Below, in pieces: positions 20,181-36,575 of a DNA stretch of 38,206 bases; position 1 is the stretch's first letter, and every line of letters begins with the position of its first letter. The notes under the pieces were generated by a model. The model was not told the DNA's origin and did no database searches. It saw only the letters and a program-made list of their open reading frames with translations. The stretch covers positions 1-38,206 of the forward strand of contig JACQDB010000137.1 in NCBI GenBank assembly GCA_016201275.1, read 5' to 3'. This DNA is from Acidobacteriota bacterium (GTDB lineage Bacteria; Acidobacteriota; Blastocatellia; UBA7656). Position numbers and translations under genes: made by a program.

Positions 20181-20846
20181 TTACGCTTTGGCAATCCAGC
20201 CATCGAACAAGCGTATAACCTTGCGCCCGTAAGCAGCGTTTTCTTCCGAGTGCGTCACTTGAATAATCGTCGTTCCCTGTTCATTCAAGCGCGTAAACAA
20301 TTCCATAATCTCGCGGCCTTGACTTGAATGCAGATTGCCGGTTGGTTCGTCGGCAAGAATCAGTTTCGGATTGCCAATCACGGCTCTGGCGATGCCTACC
20401 AATTGTTGCTGTCCGCCCGATAGTTGCGATGGATAGAGGTCTTTTTTGCCGACGATTTGAAAGCGGTCGAGAATGTCGCCGACCATTGCCTGGCGGTCGG
20501 CTTTCTTCACATCACGATAAGACAGCGGAATGTCTAGGTTTTCATAGACCGTCAGATTGTCAATCAGATGGTACTGTTGAAAGACGAAGCCTATATATTT
20601 TTTGTTCAGTTCAAGGCGCTGTTTGGCATTCAATTTATGCACGGCATTGTCGAACAAAAAATACTCGCCGCGCCACGCCGAATCCAACAGCCCGAGGATA
20701 GCAAGCAAAGTGGATTTGCCGGACCCCGATGGCCCCATCACCGAAATAAAATCGCCTTCGGCAACGTCCAGATGAATGCGCCGCAACACGAAATTTTCTT
20801 CGTGTCCCGCTTGATAAGACTTCTCCACATTGCGTAATTGAATCAT
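20181..20846 (-). CDS. ABC transporter ATP-binding protein (MacB/LolD type) with altered motifs
   Basis: A 221-residue cytoplasmic ATPase expected to power FtsX/MacB-type permeases. Walker A is GPSGSGKS (38-45), Walker B is LILADE and the switch histidine is in THS (199). Two positions deviate from the family: the signature helix reads [14 protein letters not shown] (142-155), with L149 and G151 where LSGGQQQRVAIARA is normal, and the D-loop reads GNLHSSQ with H173 in place of the usual Asp. Activity may be altered, or it may depend on pairing with a normal subunit. It follows the first permease by 73 bases. The ribosome site is weak. Confidence 0.92.
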
Positions 20847-20919: not shown

Positions 20920-23382
20920 TTATTCGTATCTGAGCGCCACCATCGGATCAACCTTCGCTGCACGGCGCGCTGGCACCAAACAGGCTACCATAGCCACTCC
21001 TGTCAAAAGCGCGGCAACCGCAGCAAAGGTCAGAAGGTCTGTGGCGCTGATGCCAAAGAGCAGACTCGACATCAAGCGCGTCAAAAAAATCGAAGCCAGT
21101 ACACCGATGCCTATACCAGTGATAATCAGCCGCATTCCTTGCCCGACAACCATCTTCAAGACCTCGCCGGTTTGGGCACCGAGCGCCAAGCGTATGCCGA
21201 TCTCGTGGGTGCGTTGGGTGACTGAATAAGCCATCACCCCGTAAATGCCTACGGCGCTCAAGACCAACGCCACGCCAGCGAATATGCCAAAGAGTAAAGC
21301 CGTAAACTTCGGTTGAGCGACGGCTTTGCCGATGTACTGATGCATCGTTTTGATCTCGTAAAGCGGCAATTCTTTGTCAAGCATAGCGACTTCGTTCTGC
21401 AGCGCTTTTGCCAGTGAACGCGGCTCTGTGTCTGTACGCACGACAAGACTCATCTGGTTGAAAAACGGTATCTGTGCGTAGGGTATATACATCTCTGAAT
21501 CCGTAGCGCGACTAAACGAGGCGCGCTGTTTGACATCCTTGACCACACCGACGATTTCAACCGATGTGCCCTCTTCATCTTCTGAAATCGGCAGACGGAG
21601 ATGCTTGCCTAAAGGGTTCTCATCAGGGAAATGCTGTTTGGCGAAGGTCTCGTTGATAATCACGACCGGCGGCGCTTTCAGATGGTCTGAAGCCGTGAAG
21701 TCGCGCCCAGCGACGAAAGCTATTTTCATGGTCTTAAAGTAATCAAGATTGATCCAACAAAAATCTGTTTGCGGTTCTTCGCCTTGTGGGGCAAGGCGAC
21801 CTTCGATTTGAAAGCTGCCTGTCGCATCATTGCCGCTAACTGGCAAAGGCATTACCCCGCTTGCGGAATGGACTCCCGGCAACGTCTTCACACGCGCCAG
21901 TAGTTGCTGGTAGAAAGCTATTTTCTGTTCGGGCTTAGGGTATTGTGTGGCGGGCAATTCGACTGTTGCGGTCAATATATTACTGCTGTCGAATCCTAAA
22001 TCAACGCGCTGAAGTTTCATAAACGTCTGTCCCAGCAAGCTGGCGCTAATCAACAGCACAAGGGCGATGGCGATTTCGGCGATGACCAGCGTACTGCGTA
22101 GCCAGGCGCGGCGATGGCTACCGGAGTTGCCGTGCGCCCCCTCTTTCATCACTTCATTCAAATCGGTCTTCGAGCCTTGAATCGCCGGAATGACACCGAA
22201 TAAAACGCCTGTGACCAGGGAGAGCAAAAAGGTAAAGCCTAAGACCCAGCGATCAAGTTTGATTTCCGACAAACGTGGCAGGTCTTCGGGAATGAGTTTG
22301 AGTAAAATCTCAAGGCCCCACCACGCCAGCAGCAAGCCTAGCAAGCCACCGATAAGCGATAGCAAAACGCTTTCGGTGAGCAGTTGCCGTATGAGTCGCA
22401 AACGGCTTGCCCCCAGCGCCGCACGCACAGCGATTTCTTTATAGCGCGTTGTCGTCCGTGCCAGCATCAAGTTAGCGACATTGGCGCAGGCGATTAACAA
22501 GATGCAGCCAACCGCGCCTAAGAGGATAAGCAGCGCAGTGCGGTAATCGCTTACCAAATCGTCGTGAAAAGGGATGAGGCGTATGCCTGCGGCAAAGTTG
22601 TTATCGGGGTATTCTTCTGCGAGAGCGTTGGCAATGGCATTCATTTCGGCTTGCGCTTGTTGAATTGTCACCTCAGATTTCAGGCGAGCGATGCCTTGCA
22701 GAAGGCGGAAGCCGCGCCTCTCGGTTATGGCTTTATTCTCAGCATCGGGTTCCGAATCAATCGCCGAGGTGACCCAGATTTCGACCGGGTCGGCTTGAAT
22801 TGGGAATTGCAAGCCCGCTGGCATCACGCCAACAATCTCAAACGGTTTTCTATCAAGCGTGATCGCTTGACCGATAACCTTGAGGTCGGCAGCAAACTGC
22901 CTTTGCCATAGGCTATAGCTGATGATAGCCGCACGGCTGGACTGAGCGCCGCGAACTTTTTCGTCTTCGCGTTTGAAGCTGCGCCCGATATGCGGTTTGA
23001 CCTGTAGCAGATCAAATAACTCTGCCGAGACGATCTGTCCGCTGAGTTGAACAGGTTGCCCCGCGCCGCTCATCGAAAAAGCTGCGCCGCGATAGACCGC
23101 GACGTTCTCTAATGATTGATTGCGTTCGCGCCAGTCAAAGAAGTCTGGGTAAGAGATGGAGCGTTTGCTCTCCGCCTTGCGGCTGTCGGATTCCCAGACC
23201 GCGACTAGGCGCTCCGGCTGGTTGTAAGGCAACGGTCTGAGCAGCACAACATTGACGACGCTAAAGATTGCCGTGTTCGCGCCTATCCCCAGAGCGATGG
23301 CAATTATCGCAGCGGCGGTGAAGCTCGGATTCTTGAAGAGCATTCGTGCGCCATAACGCAGGTCTTGTAGTAATGTCTGCAT
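20920..23382 (-). CDS. ABC permease, ADOP type (permease 1)
   Basis: An 820-residue inner-membrane permease made of two fused FtsX/MacB units. It opens with the ADOP hallmark [18 protein letters not shown], then TM1 (about 20-42), a large periplasmic domain (about 50-270), three helices (about 275-400) around the cytoplasmic coupling stretch [18 protein letters not shown], a second periplasmic domain (about 450-690) and three C-terminal helices with [14 protein letters not shown]. It ends PMVALRYE. Such permeases use a separate ATPase; ABC genes lie at both ends of the array. Substrate is unknown (peptide, lipid or antibiotic export is known for MacB relatives). Its 3' 161 bases are almost identical to permease 2. 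Confidence 0.92.
20924..21084. repeat. 161-bp 3'-end repeat shared with permease 2 (copy 1)
   Basis: By eye this differs from 23518-23678 at only four positions (about 97% identity), ending sharply at TCAA, beyond which the genes diverge. A 41-base stretch within it is also identical in permease 4 (near 28584-28625). It covers the final three-helix region, the tail [17 protein letters not shown], and little else. Confidence 0.88.
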
Positions 23383-23513
23383 CAGTACCTCTTTCTCATT
23401 TAGGATTTTGCCTTGACGGGCAAAAGATTTCTCGCCTTACGTTTCATCGTTTCGCCTTCTTCAATAGAAATTGCAGCAAGAGTTGAAGCCAAAATCTAAA
23501 CTCCAAAATCGTT

Positions 23514-25964
<2,451 letters not shown>

Positions 25965-26104: not shown

Positions 26105-28531
26105 TCATTCGCAGCGCAGCGCCACCATCGGATCAACTTTTGTCGCTCGTCGCGCTGGCAGAAAACAGGCAAGGAAGGCAACCAGCGCGAGCAACAAAGA
26201 GATGCCAATAAAAGTCAAAGGGTCAGTCGCCGAGACGCCGTAAAGAATCCCCGACATGGCGCGAGTCAAGGCGATGGCTCCCGCAAATCCCAACCCCAAA
26301 CCGATGCCTGTCAGCAACAAGCCTTGCCCGACTACAAGTTTAAAAATGTTGCCGGAGGGCGCGCCTAAAGCCAGACGGATGCCGATTTCATGGGTGCGCT
26401 GCGAAACCATATAAGACATCACGGCATAGATTCCGACGGATGCCAACAACAAAGCGATGAGCGCGAAAAAGCCCAATAAAAATGCCGTCAAGCGTTTCGG
26501 AGAGAGTCTTTCGCCGATAACATTGCTCATCGTTTTCACATTGAAAACCGGCAAATCTTTATCGAGCGCGTTTACTTCGCTGCGAATTGCTGCGGTCAAC
26601 AAGGTTGGCTCAGAGTTTGTGCGAACTACCAAATCCATTGCCCTGTAGGAAGCTTGTGAATAAGGAAGGTACATACTCCATTGCGCTTTATCGTCCATAT
26701 CATCATTCATCACGTTTGCCGCTACGCCGATGATTTCAAGCGGCGCGCTCTGGTCACCTATCATCTTGAAATGTTGCCCCAGAGGATTTTGATCCGCGAA
26801 AAACCGCTGCACAAAGGCTTCGTTGACAATCACCACTCCGGTAGATTTTTGGTCATCTTGTTCAGTGAAATTGCGCCCCTTGAGAAGGGCTGTGCCCATC
26901 GCTGCAAAATAACTTGGAGTCACCACGCGAAGATCAATGTTGGGTTCTTTGCCCGCTTGGAAAACTGTTTGCGAGATACTTTGCAGACTGCGGCTGGCGC
27001 TGCTGCCGCCCATCGGTAGATCGCTAATGACGCCTGCATTCGCCACTGTGGGAAGAGATTTTATGCGGCTCAAAAGCTGTTGATAAAAATGAATTCGCGC
27101 TTCGTCCTTGGCATATTTCTCGGTGGTCAGCGAAATACGCATGGTCAAAACATTCTCCGGTTTGACTCCCAGATTGGCGCGCAATAGTTCAACAAAACTT
27201 CTAATCATCAGCCCCGCGCCGATTAACAAAACAAGCGACAGCGCGACTTCGGAAATCACCAGCCAGCTACGGGTGCGATGGTGCGCGCCTTTGCCCGGTG
27301 CACCTTTGCCGCCTTCTTTCAAAGCTTCATTGAAGTTGGTCTTGGTCGTTTGCAAGGCTGGCACAAGTCCGAATAACAAGCCTGTCACTACAGAAATAAG
27401 GAGTGTGAAAACAAAAGCCATTTGATTGAGTCCGAGTTTATGCCAGCCTGGAATGAACTCGGAAAACTCTTGCGGGATGCCGCGCGCCAAGGCTTCAACG
27501 CCCCAGATCGAAAGCAGCAATCCACACGCGCCACCAACCAAAGCCAGCAACAAACTTTCTGTGAGCAATTGCCGAATCAGACGAAAGCGGGTAGCTCCCA
27601 TCGCCAGACGAATAGCAATCTCTTTTTGCCTTGAAGCGCCGCGCACCAGTAAAAGATTCGCCACGTTGGCGCAGGCAATCAACAACACGAAGCCTACAGC
27701 GCCCAGCAACACAGGCGAATAGGTCTTGGAGTGACGCACCATATCGTCGCTCATAAAAGCGGTGAGCACCGTCCTGCCGCTGTTGCTCTGGGGATATTGT
27801 TGTTGCGAACGCAGAGCGATTGAGTTGAGGTCTGCGCTCGCTTGCTCAAGCGTCACGCCGGGCTTGAGCATCGCCAAAACTTGCAAGTAGTGATGCTTGC
27901 GTTCGGCTTTGAGTTTCGCGTCGAAGACCAGTGGAACCCACATCTCGCCCCGATTAAAAGGGAAGTTGAAATCCGGCGGCATCACGCCAAGCACCACGTA
28001 GCTCTTGCCGTTGAGTGTGAGTGTTTGATTGATGATGTTTGGGTCGCTGCCAAAACGACGTTGCCAGAGGCTATGCTTTAAGACCACAAACTGATGATTA
28101 TCAGGTTGCACATCTTGGGTAGTGAAGACGCGACCATGTGCGGCTTGCACTCCTAGGGTCTCGAAAAACTCCGGTGAAACGTCATAACCTAAAAACCGCT
28201 CCGGCTCGCTTCCATCGGTTAAATCGAAATAGCTTTGGTCAATGGCTACGACTTGCTCAAGCGTCTGGTTTTGCTCTCGCCAATCGTTGAAATTTCCCGG
28301 CGCAACCTCGCCATGATCTATGTCCACCTCAAGATTCTGTTCCCAGAGCATCAACAGTCGCTCTTGATTGGCGAAAGCGAAAGGGTGCAGCACAAGCGTA
28401 TCAATGGCGCTGAAGATTGTCGTGTTGGCGCCAATGCCTAACGCCAGGGTAAGCACAGCAAGGAGCGTGAAGCCGGGGTTTTTCAACATGGCGCGAAGCG
28501 CAAAGCGCAGGTCTTGAATTATTGTATTCAT
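26105..28531 (-). CDS. ABC permease, ADOP type (permease 3)
   Basis: 808 residues, the most diverged at its ends: it begins IIQDLRFALRAMLKNPGF instead of [10 protein letters not shown] and ends PMVALRCE. The FtsX-type coupling stretches are RQKEIAIRLAMGATRFRL (centre) and [18 protein letters not shown] (C-terminal unit). Its stretch before the first central helix includes QSNSGRTVLTAFMSDDM. The start codon follows TAGGAG-N5, in which the TAG is the stop of permease 4, so translation is probably coupled. The 140 bases after it are GC-rich, with an inverted repeat GAGGCGGCGA (25984-25993) / TCGCCGCCTC (26039-26048), and separate it from permease 2. Substrate unknown. Confidence 0.92.
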   Translation of the reverse strand: MNTIIQDLRFALRAMLKNPGFTLLAVLTLALGIGANTTIFSAIDTLVLHPFAFANQERLLMLWEQNLEVDIDHGEVAPGNFNDWREQNQTLEQVVAIDQSYFDLTDGSEPERFLGYDVSPEFFETLGVQAAHGRVFTTQDVQPDNHQFVVLKHSLWQRRFGSDPNIINQTLTLNGKSYVVLGVMPPDFNFPFNRGEMWVPLVFDAKLKAERKHHYLQVLAMLKPGVTLEQASADLNSIALRSQQQYPQSNSGRTVLTAFMSDDMVRHSKTYSPVLLGAVGFVLLIACANVANLLLVRGASRQKEIAIRLAMGATRFRLIRQLLTESLLLALVGGACGLLLSIWGVEALARGIPQEFSEFIPGWHKLGLNQMAFVFTLLISVVTGLLFGLVPALQTTKTNFNEALKEGGKGAPGKGAHHRTRSWLVISEVALSLVLLIGAGLMIRSFVELLRANLGVKPENVLTMRISLTTEKYAKDEARIHFYQQLLSRIKSLPTVANAGVISDLPMGGSSASRSLQSISQTVFQAGKEPNIDLRVVTPSYFAAMGTALLKGRNFTEQDDQKSTGVVIVNEAFVQRFFADQNPLGQHFKMIGDQSAPLEIIGVAANVMNDDMDDKAQWSMYLPYSQASYRAMDLVVRTNSEPTLLTAAIRSEVNALDKDLPVFNVKTMSNVIGERLSPKRLTAFLLGFFALIALLLASVGIYAVMSYMVSQRTHEIGIRLALGAPSGNIFKLVVGQGLLLTGIGLGLGFAGAIALTRAMSGILYGVSATDPLTFIGISLLLALVAFLACFLPARRATKVDPMVALRCE

Positions 28532-28539
28532 AAAAACTC

Positions 28540-30990
28540 CTATTCGTATCTGAGCGCAATCATCGGATCAACTTTCGCTGCACGTCGCGCTGGCACCAAA
28601 CAGGCTACCATAGCCACTCCTGTCAAAAGTGCGGAAACTAGGACAAAGGTCAAAAGGTCTGTGGCGCTGACTCCGTACAGCACGCTCGACATCAATTGCG
28701 TCACCGCTAACGCCGCAAGTAAACCTAGCGACACGCCGAGCAAAGCCAGAGTGACGCCTTGCTTGAGAACCATCTTCAAGACCTCGCCAGCCTGTGCGCC
28801 AAGCGCCATGCGTATGCCAATCTCGCGGGTACGTTGGGCAACCGAATAAGCCATCACCCCGTAAATGCCTATGGCGGCAAGCAACAAAGCAAGCAATCCG
28901 AAACTGCCCAGAAGAAGCGCCGCAACACGCGCCGGAAAGAGGGAAAAGCCCATGTGTTCGGTCAACGTCTTGACACTAAATACCGGCAGAGTTTCATCCA
29001 GCGTTTGAAACTCCTGACGAATCGCAGAGATTAAACTGCGCGGCTCGACAGACGTGCGAACCACCAGCGAGACGCTGGCATTATAAGATTGCAGCAAGGG
29101 CGAATAGGCAAACGGTTGCGGCGCTTCGCCTATCGTCCAATATTTTCCGTCGCCAGTGACGCCAACGATTTGTATGAAAGGACCTGCAACACCTTGAAAG
29201 CTGAAGCGTTTGCCTATAGCCTCTTGCACGGAACCAAGCTCAGGGATGAGGCGACGGACAAAGCTTTCATTGACGATAGCTACCTGCGACGCTTTGTCGT
29301 TATCTTGTTCGGTAAACGAGCGTCCGGCAAGCAGAGCAATCTCCATAGTTGAAAAGTAATCAGCACTCACAGAAGAGACCATCGCGCTAGGCACTTCGGC
29401 TCCGCGCACAGGCGGTTGCCCTTCGACATAGACAGTGTTGCCTGAATAGTTGCCGCTCAGAGGCAAGAGGTCTGTAAGCGCCGCAGAACGGACTCCCGGA
29501 AGCGCCCTGACACGCTCAATAATCTGCTGTTCAAAACGCTTGCCTTTGACTTGATCGTAACCTTGCAAGCCTAAATCGAAAGACATAATCAAGCCATTTT
29601 CCGTAGCAAATCCGGGGTTCATAGTTTGTAGATGTTGCAAAGAACGCAGCGCCAAACCCGCCGCAATCAACAACACCAACGACAGCGCAATCTGCAAAAC
29701 CACCAAGCTGCTACGCAACTTTGAGCGCCGATAACCGCCTATGGTGGTTTCATCTTTTAATGCCGAAACTACCTGAGACTTGGTCGCTTGTAGCGCCGGA
29801 ATGAACCCGAACAACAAGCTCGTTCCTAACGATAGCAAGAGCGAAAAAAGCAGCACCCGCCAATCCATCTGCAAGTCTATGGTGATGGGAAAATCAACCG
29901 GCGGTTTGAAAGCCACTACCAACTCAATAATCCAAATCGCCAACAGCAACCCCGCCGCCCCGCCAAGCAGAGAGAGCAAGAGGCTTTCGGTCAACAACTG
30001 ATGAATCAGTTGCGCCCGACTCGCGCCCAACGACAAACGTATAGCAATCTCTTTGCGACGTTTGGTGGCGCGCGCCAACATCAGACTGGCGATGTTGGTG
30101 CAGGCAATCAGCAGCACTAGCGCCACAGTAGCAAGTAGAATTGTCGAAAAGCTTACGAAAGCGTCTCTGATATTTGGCAACACAAAACCCGGTTGGGTTA
30201 AGACGATGGACAAGCCTTCGTTTTCATTGGGGTACTCTTGCCCTAGTTGCTGCGACAGCAAATTTAAAGAGGCTTCGGCTTGTTCGCGGCTTACTTCTGG
30301 TTTCAGACGACCCGTGACAAAAATGTTTTGTGTACTGCGCCGCTCCAACCAAGCGTTGCCCGGCTCTATCCATTCCTGCATGGTCATAGGCACCCAGACT
30401 TCCGGCAGAAAGATCAACTCGGTGCCGACAAAACCTGGCGGCGCAACGCCTATAATCTGGAAGCTATGCCCGTTGATGATTACCTTGTTGCCGATAATAT
30501 CGGGGTCGCTGGCAAAGCGTCTCTGCCAACACCCATAGCTCAGTACGGCTAAGGGATTGGCAAGCGGCACGCGGTCTTCTTCGGAGGTAAACATTCGCCC
30601 TTTCACGGCTTGGACGCCGAGAACTTGGAAATAATTTCCGCTCACTTCATAGCCCCATATACGTTCGTTGTTGCCGTTGTGGCTCAACCCCATAGGCGTG
30701 ATGCGCGAGGCGTAGATGCCCGCTAGAACCTCGTTGCGGTCTCGAAAATCCACATAGTTTGGATAAGAGAAAGCCGCCATTGAGCCGCCCTTGCTTTGCA
30801 CATTAAGGGCTTGCAGTTGATGCGGCTGCTCTACCGGCAAGGGGCGCAACAAAACGGTGTTGACCAAGCTAAAGATTGCCGTGGTCGCGCCGATGCCTAA
30901 CGTCAAGGAGAGCAGCGCGATGAGTGAAAAGCCGGGGTTTTTGCGTAATAAGCGAGCGCCGTAGCGCAGGTCTTGCCAGAGTGTTTGCAT
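28540..30990 (-). CDS. ABC permease, ADOP type (permease 4)
   Basis: 816 residues with [18 protein letters not shown] at the start, central coupling stretch [19 protein letters not shown]-terminal RTREIGIRMALGAQ and the end PMIALRYE. Its first periplasmic domain contains the FSYPNYVDFRDRN box shared in form by many ADOP permeases. Only eight bases separate its stop from the permease 3 start, and 11 bases separate it from permease 5; in both junctions the stop codon overlaps the next ribosome site (TAGGAG). Its 5' end and upstream junction are copied at permease 5 (see 30956-31013). Confidence 0.92.
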   Translation of the reverse strand: MQTLWQDLRYGARLLRKNPGFSLIALLSLTLGIGATTAIFSLVNTVLLRPLPVEQPHQLQALNVQSKGGSMAAFSYPNYVDFRDRNEVLAGIYASRITPMGLSHNGNNERIWGYEVSGNYFQVLGVQAVKGRMFTSEEDRVPLANPLAVLSYGCWQRRFASDPDIIGNKVIINGHSFQIIGVAPPGFVGTELIFLPEVWVPMTMQEWIEPGNAWLERRSTQNIFVTGRLKPEVSREQAEASLNLLSQQLGQEYPNENEGLSIVLTQPGFVLPNIRDAFVSFSTILLATVALVLLIACTNIASLMLARATKRRKEIAIRLSLGASRAQLIHQLLTESLLLSLLGGAAGLLLAIWIIELVVAFKPPVDFPITIDLQMDWRVLLFSLLLSLGTSLLFGFIPALQATKSQVVSALKDETTIGGYRRSKLRSSLVVLQIALSLVLLIAAGLALRSLQHLQTMNPGFATENGLIMSFDLGLQGYDQVKGKRFEQQIIERVRALPGVRSAALTDLLPLSGNYSGNTVYVEGQPPVRGAEVPSAMVSSVSADYFSTMEIALLAGRSFTEQDNDKASQVAIVNESFVRRLIPELGSVQEAIGKRFSFQGVAGPFIQIVGVTGDGKYWTIGEAPQPFAYSPLLQSYNASVSLVVRTSVEPRSLISAIRQEFQTLDETLPVFSVKTLTEHMGFSLFPARVAALLLGSFGLLALLLAAIGIYGVMAYSVAQRTREIGIRMALGAQAGEVLKMVLKQGVTLALLGVSLGLLAALAVTQLMSSVLYGVSATDLLTFVLVSALLTGVAMVACLVPARRAAKVDPMIALRYE

Positions 30991-31013
30991 AAGAATTTCT
31001 CCTATTCGTAGCG
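30956..31013. repeat. 58-bp permease junction repeat (copy 1)
   Basis: Contains the first ~11 codons of permease 4, its ribosome site, and the last codons of permease 5 (LRYE plus TAG). It matches 33367-33424 at 57 of 58 bases; the single change (30999 against 33410) lies in the ribosome site, AGGAG here and AGGAC there. Confidence 0.9.
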
Positions 31014-33401
31014 TAGCGCAATCATTGGATCAATTTTAGTGGCGCGGTGCGCTGGCCCGAAACAGGCTACCAGAGCCACTCCTGTCAATATCACGGCAAC
31101 CACAGCAAAGGTTAGAGGGCCTGTCGAACTGATGCCGAACAGGAAACTCTGCATCAAGCGCGTCATCGCCAAAGCGCCAAGTGAACCCAGCGCCAAGCCA
31201 ATCAAGACCTTCATCATGCCTTGTCTTAAAATCAGTTTCAGCACCTCGCCCGGTTTTGCGCCAAGCGCCAGACGAAGGCCGATTTCATGAGTGCGTTGCG
31301 TGACCATGTAAGACACGACGCCATAAATGCCAATCACGGCCAAGAGCATTGCCAATGCCGCAAAGGCGGTCAGCAGCCAGGTTGAGAAGCGGCGATCCGC
31401 GCTCAATTCGGCCACCGATTGACTGAGCATTTTGAAGGAGTGAATCGGTTGCTTGTTGTCTATTGCGCCAAGTTCTTGGCGCATGGCTGGCCGCAGTCTC
31501 ATCGGGTCGCTCAACGATGAACGAACCATCAACGCCATTGCTGCCCCCGGCTCCTGCTGATAGGGAAGATAGACGCGCGGGAACCATTCATTGCTGTTAA
31601 AGGTGTAGCGTCTCCAAGCTCTTGTGGCACCAACCACGCCGACTATCTCCCGCGCCGTATCCTCGAACTGTAGATGTTTGCCCAGAGGGTTTTCGTTGGG
31701 GAACAGACGCTGCGCCAGTGTTTCATCAATGATGGCGACTGACGGAGCGCCTTTTACATCAAGGTTGGTGAACCAGCGTCCAGCACGTAGCGGAATTCCC
31801 ATTGCACTAAAATAATCCGTATTCACTGGATGGCGTGAAGCCAGCGGTCTTTGTTCTTCCGGCACGCTGGCGTGTTCTGCGATGGCAATTCGCCAACCCT
31901 TTTCCCAACTGTTGACGATGCCCACTTGCTGTACGCCGGGAATGGCAGCGACTCGTTCAACCAGTTGCTGATAAAATCTCACCACCTGATGCGGCTCACG
32001 GTATTGGTCGCCCGACAAATCAATCTTTGCCGTCAGCACCCCCGCTGAATCAAAACCGCGATTCACATGGGTTAAGCGCCAGAAACTTTTGAGCATCAAC
32101 CCTGCACCCACCAATAGCATCAGGGTCAGCGCCACCTCAGTCACGACCAGCAAAGAACGCAAGCGAGGTTGCCCTCTCCTTGGACTATCGCTACGCCCAC
32201 CTTCTTTCAACGCCTCGTTGAAGTTTACCTTTGAGGTTTGGAAGGCCGGAACCAATCCACAGAGAAGCGTCGTCAACAAAGCCAGTGCCAAGGTATAGCC
32301 GAGCGCCCAGCCGTCAATCTTCAATACGGCGACATTCGCGTTTTTCGCCGCCACAGATTCTGGCAAGCCGCTAATCAATAACCCCAGACACCAGTCCGCC
32401 AACAGCAAACCACCTGCACTGCCGATGAAGGCAAGCATTGCACTCTCGACCAACAATTGCTGAACAAGTCGCCAACGTCCTGCGCCAAGCGCCAAGCGAA
32501 TAGCCATTTCCTTACGGCGCGTTGCGGCGCGTGTCAGTAACAAATTGGCGATATTGACACAAGCGATGAGCAGGACAAAACCGGCAGCAGCGAACAGTAT
32601 GAACAGCATTTGCCGTTCGCCTATGGTCAACACCGTTTGCAGCGGTTTCACTACAGCGCGAAGCTTTGCATTCGGATTCTCGGTGTAAGGGCGCAAAAGA
32701 TTTTCGACCTCCGCCTGTATCTGTTCAGTTGCAACGCCGAGCTTGCGGCGGGCAAGCTGATGCAGGTAGATTTTATTGCGCCCTCCTTGTTCTGCAATGC
32801 AAGGCAGCGTCGTCCATACATCGGTCTGCAAAATAAAATGGAAATTGGCAGGCATCACGCCGATGACCTTGTAGGCCGAGCCATTCAGGAAGATAGTTTG
32901 CCCAATCATTCCTGGATTCCCCGCAAACCGGCGTTGCCACAAATCATAGCTGATGACCACCACGCGGTCGTTTACGGATGATTCCTCTTCAAAGGTTCGT
33001 CCTTGTATTGCCTTGATGCCCAGCACCTGAAAAAGATTCGCCGAGACTTGAAATCCTTGCAGTCTTTCCGCCTCACCCTGAACCGTCAGATTAGCCGCCC
33101 AGCCATCATTCCCCCAAGCGGCAACGTCGGTGAAAACGCGATTGTGATTCTTCAAATTCAGATACGCATCTAGTCCTAAAAGCCCCTCCTCTTCACCTTG
33201 TGCATTCGTAAACGAGAACATCACCAACTCATTGGCATTTTGATAAGGCAACGATTGCAGCAACACCGCATTGACTATACTGAAGATCGCCGTGTTCGCA
33301 CCGATACCGAGTGACAGTGTAAGGATTGCCGTGAACGTGAACCCCGGACTTTTGATCAGCTTCCTCGCGCCGTAGCGCAGGTCTTGCCAGAGTGTTTGCA
33401 T
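31002..33401 (-). CDS. ABC permease, ADOP type (permease 5)
   Basis: 799 residues, the shortest intact copy. N-terminal [20 protein letters not shown]1 (about 20-42), central coupling stretch RRKEMAIRLALGAGRWRL, C-terminal RTHEIGLRLALGAKPGEV, end PMIALRYE. It is the first intact permease in transcription order. Directly upstream lies the remnant of a lost gene's stop codon and a vapBC pair on the other strand, so it may now depend on read-through past vapBC or on a new promoter; none was recognised. Its ribosome site (AGGAC) is one base poorer than that of permease 4. Confidence 0.92.
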   Translation of the reverse strand: MQTLWQDLRYGARKLIKSPGFTFTAILTLSLGIGANTAIFSIVNAVLLQSLPYQNANELVMFSFTNAQGEEEGLLGLDAYLNLKNHNRVFTDVAAWGNDGWAANLTVQGEAERLQGFQVSANLFQVLGIKAIQGRTFEEESSVNDRVVVISYDLWQRRFAGNPGMIGQTIFLNGSAYKVIGVMPANFHFILQTDVWTTLPCIAEQGGRNKIYLHQLARRKLGVATEQIQAEVENLLRPYTENPNAKLRAVVKPLQTVLTIGERQMLFILFAAAGFVLLIACVNIANLLLTRAATRRKEMAIRLALGAGRWRLVQQLLVESAMLAFIGSAGGLLLADWCLGLLISGLPESVAAKNANVAVLKIDGWALGYTLALALLTTLLCGLVPAFQTSKVNFNEALKEGGRSDSPRRGQPRLRSLLVVTEVALTLMLLVGAGLMLKSFWRLTHVNRGFDSAGVLTAKIDLSGDQYREPHQVVRFYQQLVERVAAIPGVQQVGIVNSWEKGWRIAIAEHASVPEEQRPLASRHPVNTDYFSAMGIPLRAGRWFTNLDVKGAPSVAIIDETLAQRLFPNENPLGKHLQFEDTAREIVGVVGATRAWRRYTFNSNEWFPRVYLPYQQEPGAAMALMVRSSLSDPMRLRPAMRQELGAIDNKQPIHSFKMLSQSVAELSADRRFSTWLLTAFAALAMLLAVIGIYGVVSYMVTQRTHEIGLRLALGAKPGEVLKLILRQGMMKVLIGLALGSLGALAMTRLMQSFLFGISSTGPLTFAVVAVILTGVALVACFGPAHRATKIDPMIALRYE

Positions 33402-33424
33402 AAGAATTTGTCCTATTCGTAGCG
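33367..33424. repeat. 58-bp permease junction repeat (copy 2, with ghost stop codon)
   Basis: Partner of 30956-31013. On the minus strand the first bases read CGCTACGAATAG, that is R-Y-E-stop, although no permease gene now precedes it; the homology ends there and unrelated sequence begins. Confidence 0.88.
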
Positions 33425-33526
33425 CAGATATTGTAAGAATGTTTGCAGGGTTTTCCTTCTCAATCTCGAATTTGCCTAGTGATTTTGTTATCCTCTGTTC
33501 GCCCCAAAGGCAAAGGGAGATTTGTT

Positions 33527-33772
33527 ATGAACACTGCTGAAACTGGTCTCAACAGCACAATTGACCTCGCCGACTTCAAAGCGCATTGCCTGGAAGTTCT
33601 GGAGCAACTCGTCGCGCCCGGACTCATTGTCACTAAAGAAGGCCGTCCGCTGGTCCGCATCACGCCCGTAGCCGCGGTCAACAACGAGCCGCTGATCGGT
33701 TCAATGAAAGGGCAGATCGTCATCCACGGCGATGTATTCTCAACCGGAATCGAGTGGGATACTCAATCTTGA
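33527..33772 (+). CDS. vapB: Type II antitoxin, Phd/YefM-like (VapB partner)
   Basis: An 81-residue protein with the Phd/YefM-type N-terminal DNA-binding region (STIDLADFKAHCLEVLEQL, then VTKEGRPLVRITP). The C-terminal part (about 50-81, GQIVIHGDVF..WDTQS) would wrap the toxin. ATG 33527 is chosen because GGGAG precedes it by eight bases; an upstream frame extension lacks a ribosome site. It overlaps the toxin gene by 41 bases. Such antitoxins neutralise the toxin and repress the pair's own promoter. It lies opposite to all surrounding genes. Confidence 0.85.
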   Translation: MNTAETGLNSTIDLADFKAHCLEVLEQLVAPGLIVTKEGRPLVRITPVAAVNNEPLIGSMKGQIVIHGDVFSTGIEWDTQS

Positions 33773-34118
33773 TACGCACATTCTGATCTACCTGCTCGAC
33801 GGCAACCTGAATGCGCGTGAGCATCAATTGGTCGTGCAGGAACCCCTGGCAATCTCCGACATTGTCTTGTGGGAGCTTGCCAAACTGGTTCAGCCTGGGC
33901 GTATCACGCTTGATCTGAGCAACCCGTCCTTTCAGGTATGCCTGAAGCAATTAACCGTCATTCCCATCAGCCTCAACATCGCACACACCAGCACACAGTT
34001 GGGCTTCCGCTCCGATCCCGCCGATGAATTAATCGCCGCCACCAGCATCGTCGTAGGCATTCCGTTGCTGACGTGCGATCATAAAATCCTAGGCTCTCAG
34101 CTTGTGCCATTCGCTTAA
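33732..34118 (+). CDS. vapC: PIN-domain toxin (VapC family)
   Basis: A 128-residue PIN-fold ribonuclease. Metal-binding acidic residues fit D14 (LNLDTHILIYLLDG), E48 (SDIVLWELAKL), D95/D98 (RSDPADELIAATS) and D116 (LLTCDHKIL). VapC toxins cleave specific RNAs such as initiator tRNA or the ribosomal sarcin-ricin loop; which one cannot be read here. ATG 33732 lies inside vapB and is the only in-frame start before the fold. All core acidic residues are present, so it looks intact. It ends two bases before the relic permease. Confidence 0.88.
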   Translation: MYSQPESSGILNLDTHILIYLLDGNLNAREHQLVVQEPLAISDIVLWELAKLVQPGRITLDLSNPSFQVCLKQLTVIPISLNIAHTSTQLGFRSDPADELIAATSIVVGIPLLTCDHKILGSQLVPFA

Positions 34119-34120
34119 CC

Positions 34121-34295
34121 TCACTCGTATCGTAGCGCCACCATCGGATCAACTTTCGTCGCCCGTCGCGCTGGCACGAAACAGGCTACCAGAGCCATTC
34201 CTGTCAAAATTAGCGGAACTCAATAGCGACTAAAGTGAACAAAGGTTATTGGAAAAGCCTTCTCGCGCCATAACGCAAGTCTTGCCAAAAATCAT
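34121..34295 (-). pseudogene. Collapsed ADOP permease (head and tail only)
   Basis: On the minus strand 34249-34287 encodes [13 protein letters not shown], the ADOP start motif, directly followed by TAA. The next part (from ACCTTTG at 34240-34246, then 34213 down to stop 34121-34123) encodes [16 protein letters not shown] and DPMVALRYE, the ADOP tail. About 2.2 kb of the expected 2.4 kb gene is missing. The head is frameshifted relative to its ATG (34293-34295) by loss of a base. It sits between vapC and the ATPase gene in the array's order and strand. It is not functional. Confidence 0.88.
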
Positions 34296-34412
34296 GAATT
34301 TTCTCTGACCCATTTCCTCAAGTAGGTTTTTGAGTCGCTTCTTTTACCTGTGGCTGGGTGGATATTTTCAATTCAAAAAAGCGAGAGGAATGGCACAGGC
34401 TCTTTGCTGAAT

Positions 34413-34433
34413 AGAGCGCGGCTACCTCGCTCT
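34413..34433 (-). terminator. Weak hairpin after the ATPase gene
   Basis: AGAGCG and CGCTCT form a 6-bp stem with a nine-base loop directly after the ATPase stop codon. No T-tract follows, so it may only slow or partly end transcription into the permease array. Confidence 0.3.
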
Positions 34434-35132
34434 TTACACCTTCAACATATCTTCTTCTTCGACAACGCGACCATCGAACAAATAGATGTTTTTGTCGGCG
34501 TGGCGAGCGTAGCGCGGGTCGTGCGTGACCATGCAAATAGTCGCGCCGCCTCTGTGCAATTCGCGCAGCAAATCCATTACCGCTTCGCCATTGGTAGAAT
34601 CGAGATTGCCCGTAGGCTCATCGGCAAGCAAGATAGTCGGGTCGCCAGCCACAGCACGAGCGACGGCGACGCGCTGTTGTTGACCGCCGGATAATTGCGA
34701 TGGCAGATGTTTCGCCCGATGTGCCATGCCAACCCGCTCCAAAGCACTGAGAACTTTTTTCTTGCGCTCGGACGCTTTCAAGCCGCGATAGGTGAGCGGC
34801 AATTCGACATTCTCATACACCGTCAAATCGCCAATCAAATTGAAGCTCTGAAAAATGAAACCGACTTCGCGGTTGCGTATGCGGGCGCGTTCGGAGATCG
34901 GCAAATCGGCGACCGCATGACCGTTGAGCCAATACTCGCCATCCGAGGGCGAATCCAGCAGCCCTAGTATCGAAAGCAAAGTGGATTTGCCGCACCCGGA
35001 GGGGCCGGAGATGGAAATATAATCGCCTTTGTTGATCTCCAGATGAATGCCATCCAGAGCGTGGGTTTCTACTTCGTCGGTGTAAAACACTTTTCTTACG
35101 TCGGTAAGGTGAATCAGTGGGTGGTCGCTCAT
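34434..35132 (-). CDS. ABC transporter ATP-binding protein (MacB/LolD type)
   Basis: A 232-residue ATPase with all motifs canonical: Walker A GPSGCGKS (43-50), Q-loop FQSF, signature LSGGQQQRVAVARA (147-160), Walker B ILLADE (167-172), D-loop GNLDS and switch His in THD. The length and the GLLDSPSDGEYWLNG block place it with the ATPases that partner FtsX/MacB permeases. AGGAG precedes the start. It lies 189 bases downstream of the adaptor gene and is presumably the main motor for the permeases that follow. Confidence 0.95.
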   Translation of the reverse strand: MSDHPLIHLTDVRKVFYTDEVETHALDGIHLEINKGDYISISGPSGCGKSTLLSILGLLDSPSDGEYWLNGHAVADLPISERARIRNREVGFIFQSFNLIGDLTVYENVELPLTYRGLKASERKKKVLSALERVGMAHRAKHLPSQLSGGQQQRVAVARAVAGDPTILLADEPTGNLDSTNGEAVMDLLRELHRGGATICMVTHDPRYARHADKNIYLFDGRVVEEEDMLKV

Positions 35133-35321: not shown

Positions 35322-36575
35322 TTAATTCAAACGCAGATACTCGGTGTTGTCGTAAGCCGCCGTGTCGGACAAAATCACTTTGTCGCCCTCGTGCAAGCCG
35401 TCAACAATTTCAATAGTGCTGACCGAACTGCGCCCCAGCGTCACGCTGGTACGCACCGCGCTTTTGCCGCCCTCTTCAAGTTTGAAGAGGCTGATTTTGC
35501 TGTGGTCTTTGCCTTGCACCGGGCGACCGACATACAAAATATTTTCGAGGCGTTCGATTTCCACCGTGCCGTCCACGGTTAAATTCGGGCGCGCTCCATT
35601 GGGCAACGCGCCTTCCAGCGACACGTCTATGGTGAAGGTGCCGTTTTGCGCCGCCGGGTCTATGCGCGAAACTTTGCCGGGGATCAAACCGTTGCGCGTA
35701 TCAATGCTGACGGTCTGGCCGATCAAGAGGTCTTTGACTTGCGTTTCGTTGATTTTCAATTCGGCTTTCAAACGTGTCGGGTCAACAACGCGAGCCAGAT
35801 TGGTTCCCGAAGTGACCTGCTGCCCGACCTGCACTTCAACGGCCTGCAACACGCCGCTGGTTCCGGCGCGCACGGTCAACGCTTCGACTTCATTGCGCCG
35901 CAGTTGATACAGAGCGCGGCGTTGATCCAGTTGTGCCTGTTGCGCGGCCAGTTGTGTCTTCACCTCTTCGGCAAAGATGCTCAAACGCTTCAACTCAATT
36001 TCATTGCGCGTCGCCAACTCCTCGGCTTTGACTTTCGAGGTGCGCCAGAGAATTTCCGCCAGCAAGCCCTGTTTGTAAAGCGTCTCGTTGACCTCTGCCT
36101 GCATCTTCGCTTGACTGAAATCGGACTGCACAGTGGCCGCTGCCGCCTTCTGATCCAAGACCTGACGTTCCAGGCGGACTTTCAAACTCGCATAGTCGGC
36201 TTCGCTGGCCTGTAGTTGCGAACCGGCCTCCATTGCCGTCTGCTCCAATTGCGGATTACTCAATTTAATCAACACCGTATCGGCTTTCACTGCGACCCCG
36301 GGTTTGAGCGGAATCGCTTCGACGCGCCCTTCGTTGCGCGCCGGTATCAAGCGTATGTCTTCCGGCACCAAAGTGCCCAAGCCACGCACCTGGCGCAGCA
36401 TAGAGCCGCGCTTGACCGTGTCGGTCAATACGGTAGAGGCTTCGACGCTGGGCGCAGCGGGTTTGAGGCGTGCGACGCCAAAGGTGATTAAGCCAACGGC
36501 GACGACCAGCAAGGTGCCAAACACCAGACGCTTGAGCAAGCGTTTCCGAGCAGCTGATTTGCGTGGTATGTCCAT
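35322..36575 (-). CDS. MacA/HlyD-type periplasmic adaptor protein
   Basis: A 417-residue membrane-fusion protein. One membrane anchor (about 17-37), then first half of the biotinyl-lipoyl-like domain (about 70-108; VEAIPLKPGVAVKADT), a long coiled-coil hairpin rich in Gln, Ala and Glu (about 108-235), the second lipoyl half (about 237-265; TVRAGTSGVLQAVEVQVGQQV), a beta-barrel domain and a membrane-proximal domain. Such adaptors bridge an inner-membrane ABC permease to an outer-membrane channel; no TolC-like gene is in the window. GGGAG precedes the start. It is the first gene of the minus-strand export locus. Confidence 0.92.
   Translation of the reverse strand: MDIPRKSAARKRLLKRLVFGTLLVVAVGLITFGVARLKPAAPSVEASTVLTDTVKRGSMLRQVRGLGTLVPEDIRLIPARNEGRVEAIPLKPGVAVKADTVLIKLSNPQLEQTAMEAGSQLQASEADYASLKVRLERQVLDQKAAAATVQSDFSQAKMQAEVNETLYKQGLLAEILWRTSKVKAEELATRNEIELKRLSIFAEEVKTQLAAQQAQLDQRRALYQLRRNEVEALTVRAGTSGVLQAVEVQVGQQVTSGTNLARVVDPTRLKAELKINETQVKDLLIGQTVSIDTRNGLIPGKVSRIDPAAQNGTFTIDVSLEGALPNGARPNLTVDGTVEIERLENILYVGRPVQGKDHSKISLFKLEEGGKSAVRTSVTLGRSSVSTIEIVDGLHEGDKVILSDTAAYDNTEYLRLN

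Follow-up and report, generated by a model that had tools for sequence, protein, structure and literature searches.

Probable copying of a gene junction into the start of an adjacent gene in a tandem array of ADOP family permeases

Templated insertion and short non-allelic gene conversion between tandem paralogues are known processes, as is the formation of gene relics by microhomology deletion within tandem arrays. On the evolution of ADOP permease arrays or on the structure described below, no literature was found among the top-ranked titles and abstract openings. The window, i.e. the whole stretch of DNA that was analysed, comprises the complete contig C34 with 38,206 bases, from a draft genome of 6.84 Mb in 162 contigs. 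It resembles other ADOP permease arrays (TIGR03434) in that two ABC ATPases enclose five intact ADOP genes and an HlyD-type adaptor heads the array, but it differs from them in that the array head carries a relic, a toxin-antitoxin cassette and what is probably a copied junction. The gene order on the minus strand is HlyD-type adaptor, ABC ATPase, P5, P4, P3, P2 and P1, and beyond P1 lie a second ATPase, a sigma-54 response regulator and a histidine kinase.

35322..36575, minus: HlyD-type membrane-fusion adaptor (PF13437; TIGR01730 above cut-off)
34434..35132, minus: MacB/LolD-type ABC ATPase, head of the array (PF00005; listed NCBIfam matches all below cut-off)
31002..33401, minus: P5, intact ADOP family permease, 799 aa (TIGR03434, 900.7 bits, cut-off 622.3)
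28540..30990, minus: P4, ADOP family permease, 816 aa, probable donor of the P5 start (TIGR03434, 974 bits)
26105-28531, minus: P3, intact ADOP permease
23514-25964, minus: P2, intact ADOP permease
20920-23382, minus: P1, intact ADOP permease

All five permeases exceed the TIGR03434 cut-off of 622.3 with 900.7 to 1042.7 bits (model positions 1-803), which confirms the ADOP family name for P1 to P5. The ABC ATPases at 20181-20846 and 34434-35132, which flank the array, share 77% identity over a 120-base stretch; the flanking ATPase may also be a duplicate. A scan of 33380-34460 returned zero promoters and zero terminators.

The end of P5 and the start of P4 form a junction that recurs upstream within the start of P5 itself.

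33367..33424, minus: repeat, consisting of a “ghost” ADOP end, an 11-base spacer and the first 35 bases of P5 (57/58 identical to 30956-31013)
30956..31013, minus: P5-P4 junction from P5 end to P4 start, the likely source by sequence comparison

Read on the minus strand, both copies have the form CGCTACGAATAG-GASAAATTCTT-ATGCAAACACTCTGGCAAGACCTGCGCTACGGCGC, and their sole difference is S, which is G at 31013-30956 and C at 33424-33367. The first-pass annotation had reported a junction repeat with one difference in 58 bases, and this repeat is real. A 74-base query from the ghost region had 13 matches across all 162 contigs (6.84 Mb) of the genome, among which full junction copies were found only twice, at the ghost and at the P5-P4 junction, the latter matching the query over 60 bases with 97% identity. 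Three partial matches (25933-25964, 28504-28548 and 23349-23385) fall on further ADOP starts or junctions within this array, and the remaining eight, elsewhere in the genome, are 14 to 22 bases long. With two full copies in the genome and one start-plus-end fusion in 62 sources, a common 5′ leader was rejected as the origin of the repeat. The first 35 bases are identical (35/35) in P5 and P4 only, among 823 same-genome ADOP pairs (115 genes from 12 genomes; the other 13 of the 128 ADOP genes, from short single loci, were dropped), and at least 94% identity over these bases is reached by 13 of the 823 pairs, P5/P4 included. By this comparison the match goes beyond the conserved ADOP start motif. 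Because the first 35 bases are identical, yet bases 40-99 of P5 and P4 are only 52% identical, the start of P5 is a copy of the P4 start, or the reverse, and not the outcome of whole-gene shared ancestry.

The first-pass annotation overlooked an ADOP gene start that abuts the ghost end and is fused to it in frame.

33413..33448, minus: start-plus-end fusion of 12 codons including the stop, CTG ... TAG, LQTFLQYLRYE-stop (start part profile-scored)
33428..33448, minus: ghost ADOP gene start, codons 1-7, with start codon CTG and the near-invariant Asp7 changed to Tyr (profile score)
33449..33462, minus: 14-base leader of the ghost start with a Shine-Dalgarno-like AGAAGGA (11/14 match to an ADOP leader of genome G002)

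The bases CTG CAA ACA TTC TTA CAA TAT stand directly before LRYE-stop and give xQTFLQY-LRYE-stop, with LRY at codons 8-10, which is the usual 7-residue spacing of ADOP starts. On a profile of bases 2-21 from 128 ADOP starts (genes with a start codon 7 residues before the [LIVM]R motif and a P...R end, other spacings being excluded), the ghost start ranks sixth among 76,352 window positions, behind five real ADOP starts. It scores 18.47 with all 128 training genes, which include the window's own, and whose lower quartile is 18.34; with a profile of 122 genes, none of them from this genome, it scores 18.34. Under the 122-gene profile 118 of 1,665,748 positions in 41 sources score at least as high as the ghost (itself included; overlapping stretches are counted twice in these totals), and 112 of the 118 then show [LIVM][RK][YFHL], as ADOP starts do, being called starts from this motif and not from gene models. 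Several of the other six resemble ADOP starts by eye. Asp7 occurs in 127/128 ADOP genes and is Tyr in the ghost, and the start codon is ATG in 123/128, GTG in three and TTG in two, compared with CTG in the ghost. The G002 leader is the best match among 128 ADOP leaders, and random 14-mers of the window reach 11/14 at a frequency of 0.0045. A start profile of 21 residues (threshold 14) passed over the ghost, since its ADOP-like codons are the first ten only. The sequence CAAATTCGAG upstream of the ghost was considered as an ADOP leader and rejected, as homology to a cassette of genome G011 assigns the bases from 33463 onwards to the cassette described below. With CTG as start codon and Tyr in place of Asp7, the ghost start is a decayed ADOP start. 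Chance offers no reasonable account of it, because the ghost end presets the site, with both its reading frame and the usual distance of 7 residues.

The ghost end itself (33413-33424) equals the last 12 bases of P5. Compared with the ADOP end DPxxALRYE-stop it has LRYE-stop and lacks DPxxA; slippage from ALRYE to LRYE was dismissed as its origin after the bases upstream proved to fit an ADOP start. Strings of the form [LIVM]R[YFCH][ED]-stop in 62 sources (973 kb, overlaps counted) comprise 199 ordinary ADOP ends and 15 others, which were sorted by eye into two ADOP-end-like strings with a changed residue, 12 chance-like strings and the ghost, the only one of the 15 placed after an ADOP start motif. 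In 162 genomes, a strict pattern for a start-plus-end fusion found no second case; it fixed Gln-Asp and Leu/Arg codons ending in G or C and would miss the ghost itself, which has Gln-Tyr. Isolated ADOP ends were also seen at L025 around 16886 (minus) and L054 around 2251 (plus), after sequence off the ADOP profile, and look as if short tails had been copied or left behind.

Upstream of the ghost lie a toxin-antitoxin cassette and the remains of a permease.

34121..34299, minus: relic A, internally deleted ADOP permease, 179 bases (profile and translation)
33459..34123, plus: toxin-antitoxin cassette including the flanking CTCA (homology to G011; empty site)
33527..33772, plus: Phd-like antitoxin, 81 aa (TIGR01552, 20.3 bits, just under the cut-off of 20.8; no Pfam match)
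33732..34118, plus: PIN-domain toxin, 128 aa (PF01850, E 4.6e-10, above cut-off; no NCBIfam match)

The start region of relic A has ATT for ATG and an in-frame TAA and is fused out of frame to approximately the last 32 codons of an ADOP gene, of which the terminus, ALRYE-stop, is complete. With both ends of an ADOP gene retained, relic A shows that a permease was truly lost upstream of P5. The first-pass annotation had proposed such a loss, and it holds on different evidence, namely this 179-base relic. The annotation had rested the loss on the R-Y-E-stop of the repeat as the last codons of a vanished gene. These codons were indeed copied from a real ADOP gene end and are no common leader, but they are no evidence by themselves of a lost gene, being fused to an ADOP start and part of a 47-base excess. 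Insertion of the cassette with target duplication was also considered as source of the ghost end and discarded, as relic A has its own complete ALRYE-stop, which is not the ghost end.

The frames of antitoxin and PIN toxin overlap and form a putative type II Phd/PIN pair between relic A and the ghost. CTCA is found on both sides of the cassette (33459-33462 and 34120-34123), possibly as a 4-base target duplication, although it could be due to chance. DNA homology to the G011 cassette starts at 33463, and therefore the cassette brings its own upstream region. When the flanks are joined without the cassette, the relic A stop is followed by 11 bases and the ghost start; the P5-P4 spacing is also 11. 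The nearest relatives of the toxin in 38 other genomes are found in G031:C43 (72%), G011:C170 (79-80%, two pieces) and G028:C19 (60%). An ADOP match starts about 0.3 kb from the G011 pair, a single 447-codon frame stands between the G031 pair and an ADOP gene, and in G028 the pair sits in a different tandem gene array. Related Phd/PIN cassettes occupy 33463-34119 of the window, L069 10883-11615, L037 1238-1829 and L070 9733-10288, and such cassettes may favour paralogue arrays. The G011 relative of the toxin (L069 11088-11615) consists of two matching pieces about 130-145 bases apart in one open frame and seems, from this layout, to carry an in-frame insertion.

In six other genomes of the family, none of the matches scored (up to 40 candidates per genome) revealed an alignable locus; those listed fall within the query's two ADOP-like parts, except for one 31-base match to the toxin region, in G002. 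A scan of genome contigs, which may omit records very near this genome, found no orthologous locus, two distant relatives only (33% and 22% identical). Among the 38 relatives there was no other genome of the same genus.

The junction repeat can also be described as a unit of 47 bases.

33381..33427, minus: 47 extra bases, the edges of which can slide inside the word CTGCGCTACG (period 47 in both junctions)

The word CTGCGCTACG stands at the ghost and, 47 bases on, at codon 8 of P5, and CGCTACG repeats at the same distance in the P5-P4 junction. Removal of the 47 bases lets the ghost start read in frame into P5 as an open, normal-looking ADOP start, LQTFLQYLRYGARKLIKSPGF. LRY stands near both ends of ADOP genes, at codons 8-10 and again as the three residues preceding the last Glu, and the two ends of P5 also share the DNA word CGCTACG. 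From these features we infer that P5's own start received, by insertion, a single 47-base copy of the P5-P4 junction and that no gene was lost there, a reading that we hold with about half confidence. Its strongest competitor, which we consider a serious contender though somewhat short of an even chance, is that unequal exchange at the start motifs of P4 and P5 duplicated P5 and that the first copy was lost by an in-frame deletion from LRY to LRYE, so that a permease did disappear at this site. The second P5 copy would then carry P4's first codons. The same two joints account for every base, tandem duplications are common in bacteria, and relic A is another permease lost through internal deletion. 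This history requires two events of 2.4 kb with edges coinciding on one word, and long identical twins normally disappear through ordinary recombination without leaving a fossil. In 11/128 ADOP genes the two ends have a 7-base in-frame run in common, and in none a longer one, so that the deletion is possible but not strongly driven. The insertion is preferred because it is one event requiring both edges on the same word, compared with two large events that share the word by chance. The ADOP-like score of the ghost start, the uniquely identical first 35 bases of P5 and P4, and the 11-base spacing at the empty cassette site also speak for it. It is weakened by the fact that an in-frame LRY/LRYE join is also expected from clean deletion of a whole permease, and relic A shows that permeases of the array do get deleted; moreover, no second case was seen in 62 sources or, by the strict pattern, in 162 genomes.

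Very unlikely, in our judgement, is an independent permease X that was no twin of P5, whose junction with P5 was homogenised by gene conversion before X was reduced to its two ends. In favour of X, the ghost start is unlike the present P5 start (15/21 bases alike, counted by eye), and such starts fit any ADOP gene; against it, both conversion and deletion are needed, and no further sequence of X remains. An assembler misled by near-identical junctions is conceivable in a draft of 162 contigs and yet barely credible here, as the copies differ at one base, the ghost start carries private changes, and exact identity extends over runs of just 14 and 43 bases.

We propose the following course for the insertion of the 47-base junction copy. 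Cistron P5 would originally have started at 33448, 11 bases past the stop of permease A. Template switching or a short non-allelic conversion would have carried the copying from the start of P5 to its end 2.4 kb away, on for 47 bases across the P5-P4 junction, P4 start included, and back to the P5 start at the next LRY word. The stretch copied into the neighbouring start probably left the old P5 start as a tiny fossil, shortened to 12 codons by the copied stop, while P5 would have acquired a second start from P4 with its own ribosome-binding site, which kept the gene intact. The fossil start may have decayed later (CTG; Asp to Tyr). Separately, permease A would have been cut down to 179 bases and the Phd/PIN cassette inserted between A and P5.

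In conclusion, the locus holds a small trace of reshuffling in rows of duplicated genes and not a new kind of system. A ghost stop codon alone is no evidence of a lost gene, since a copied junction can plant one, which matters where gene losses in large paralogue arrays are deduced from junction repeats. The locus also suggests a route by which start signals move between tandem paralogues with both genes staying open. We speculate that the LRY/CGCTACG words make a stop-spacer-start unit of about 47 bases portable, so that starts and translation signals are swapped harmlessly, and that the fossil with its ribosome-binding site acts as a coupled leader tuning P5, although we consider this improbable. 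Similar to templated insertion or non-allelic conversion, the tract is short, bounded by microhomology and drawn from a site of the same array at a distance of 2.4 kb; it differs in that it consists of stop, spacer and start and gives its target a new start instead of breaking it, by a mechanism that we infer. Similar to relics of microhomology deletion, the start and end of one family are fused, and the adjoining relic A keeps both ends of one gene, whereas the ghost has only 12 codons and the same letters can arise without a lost gene.
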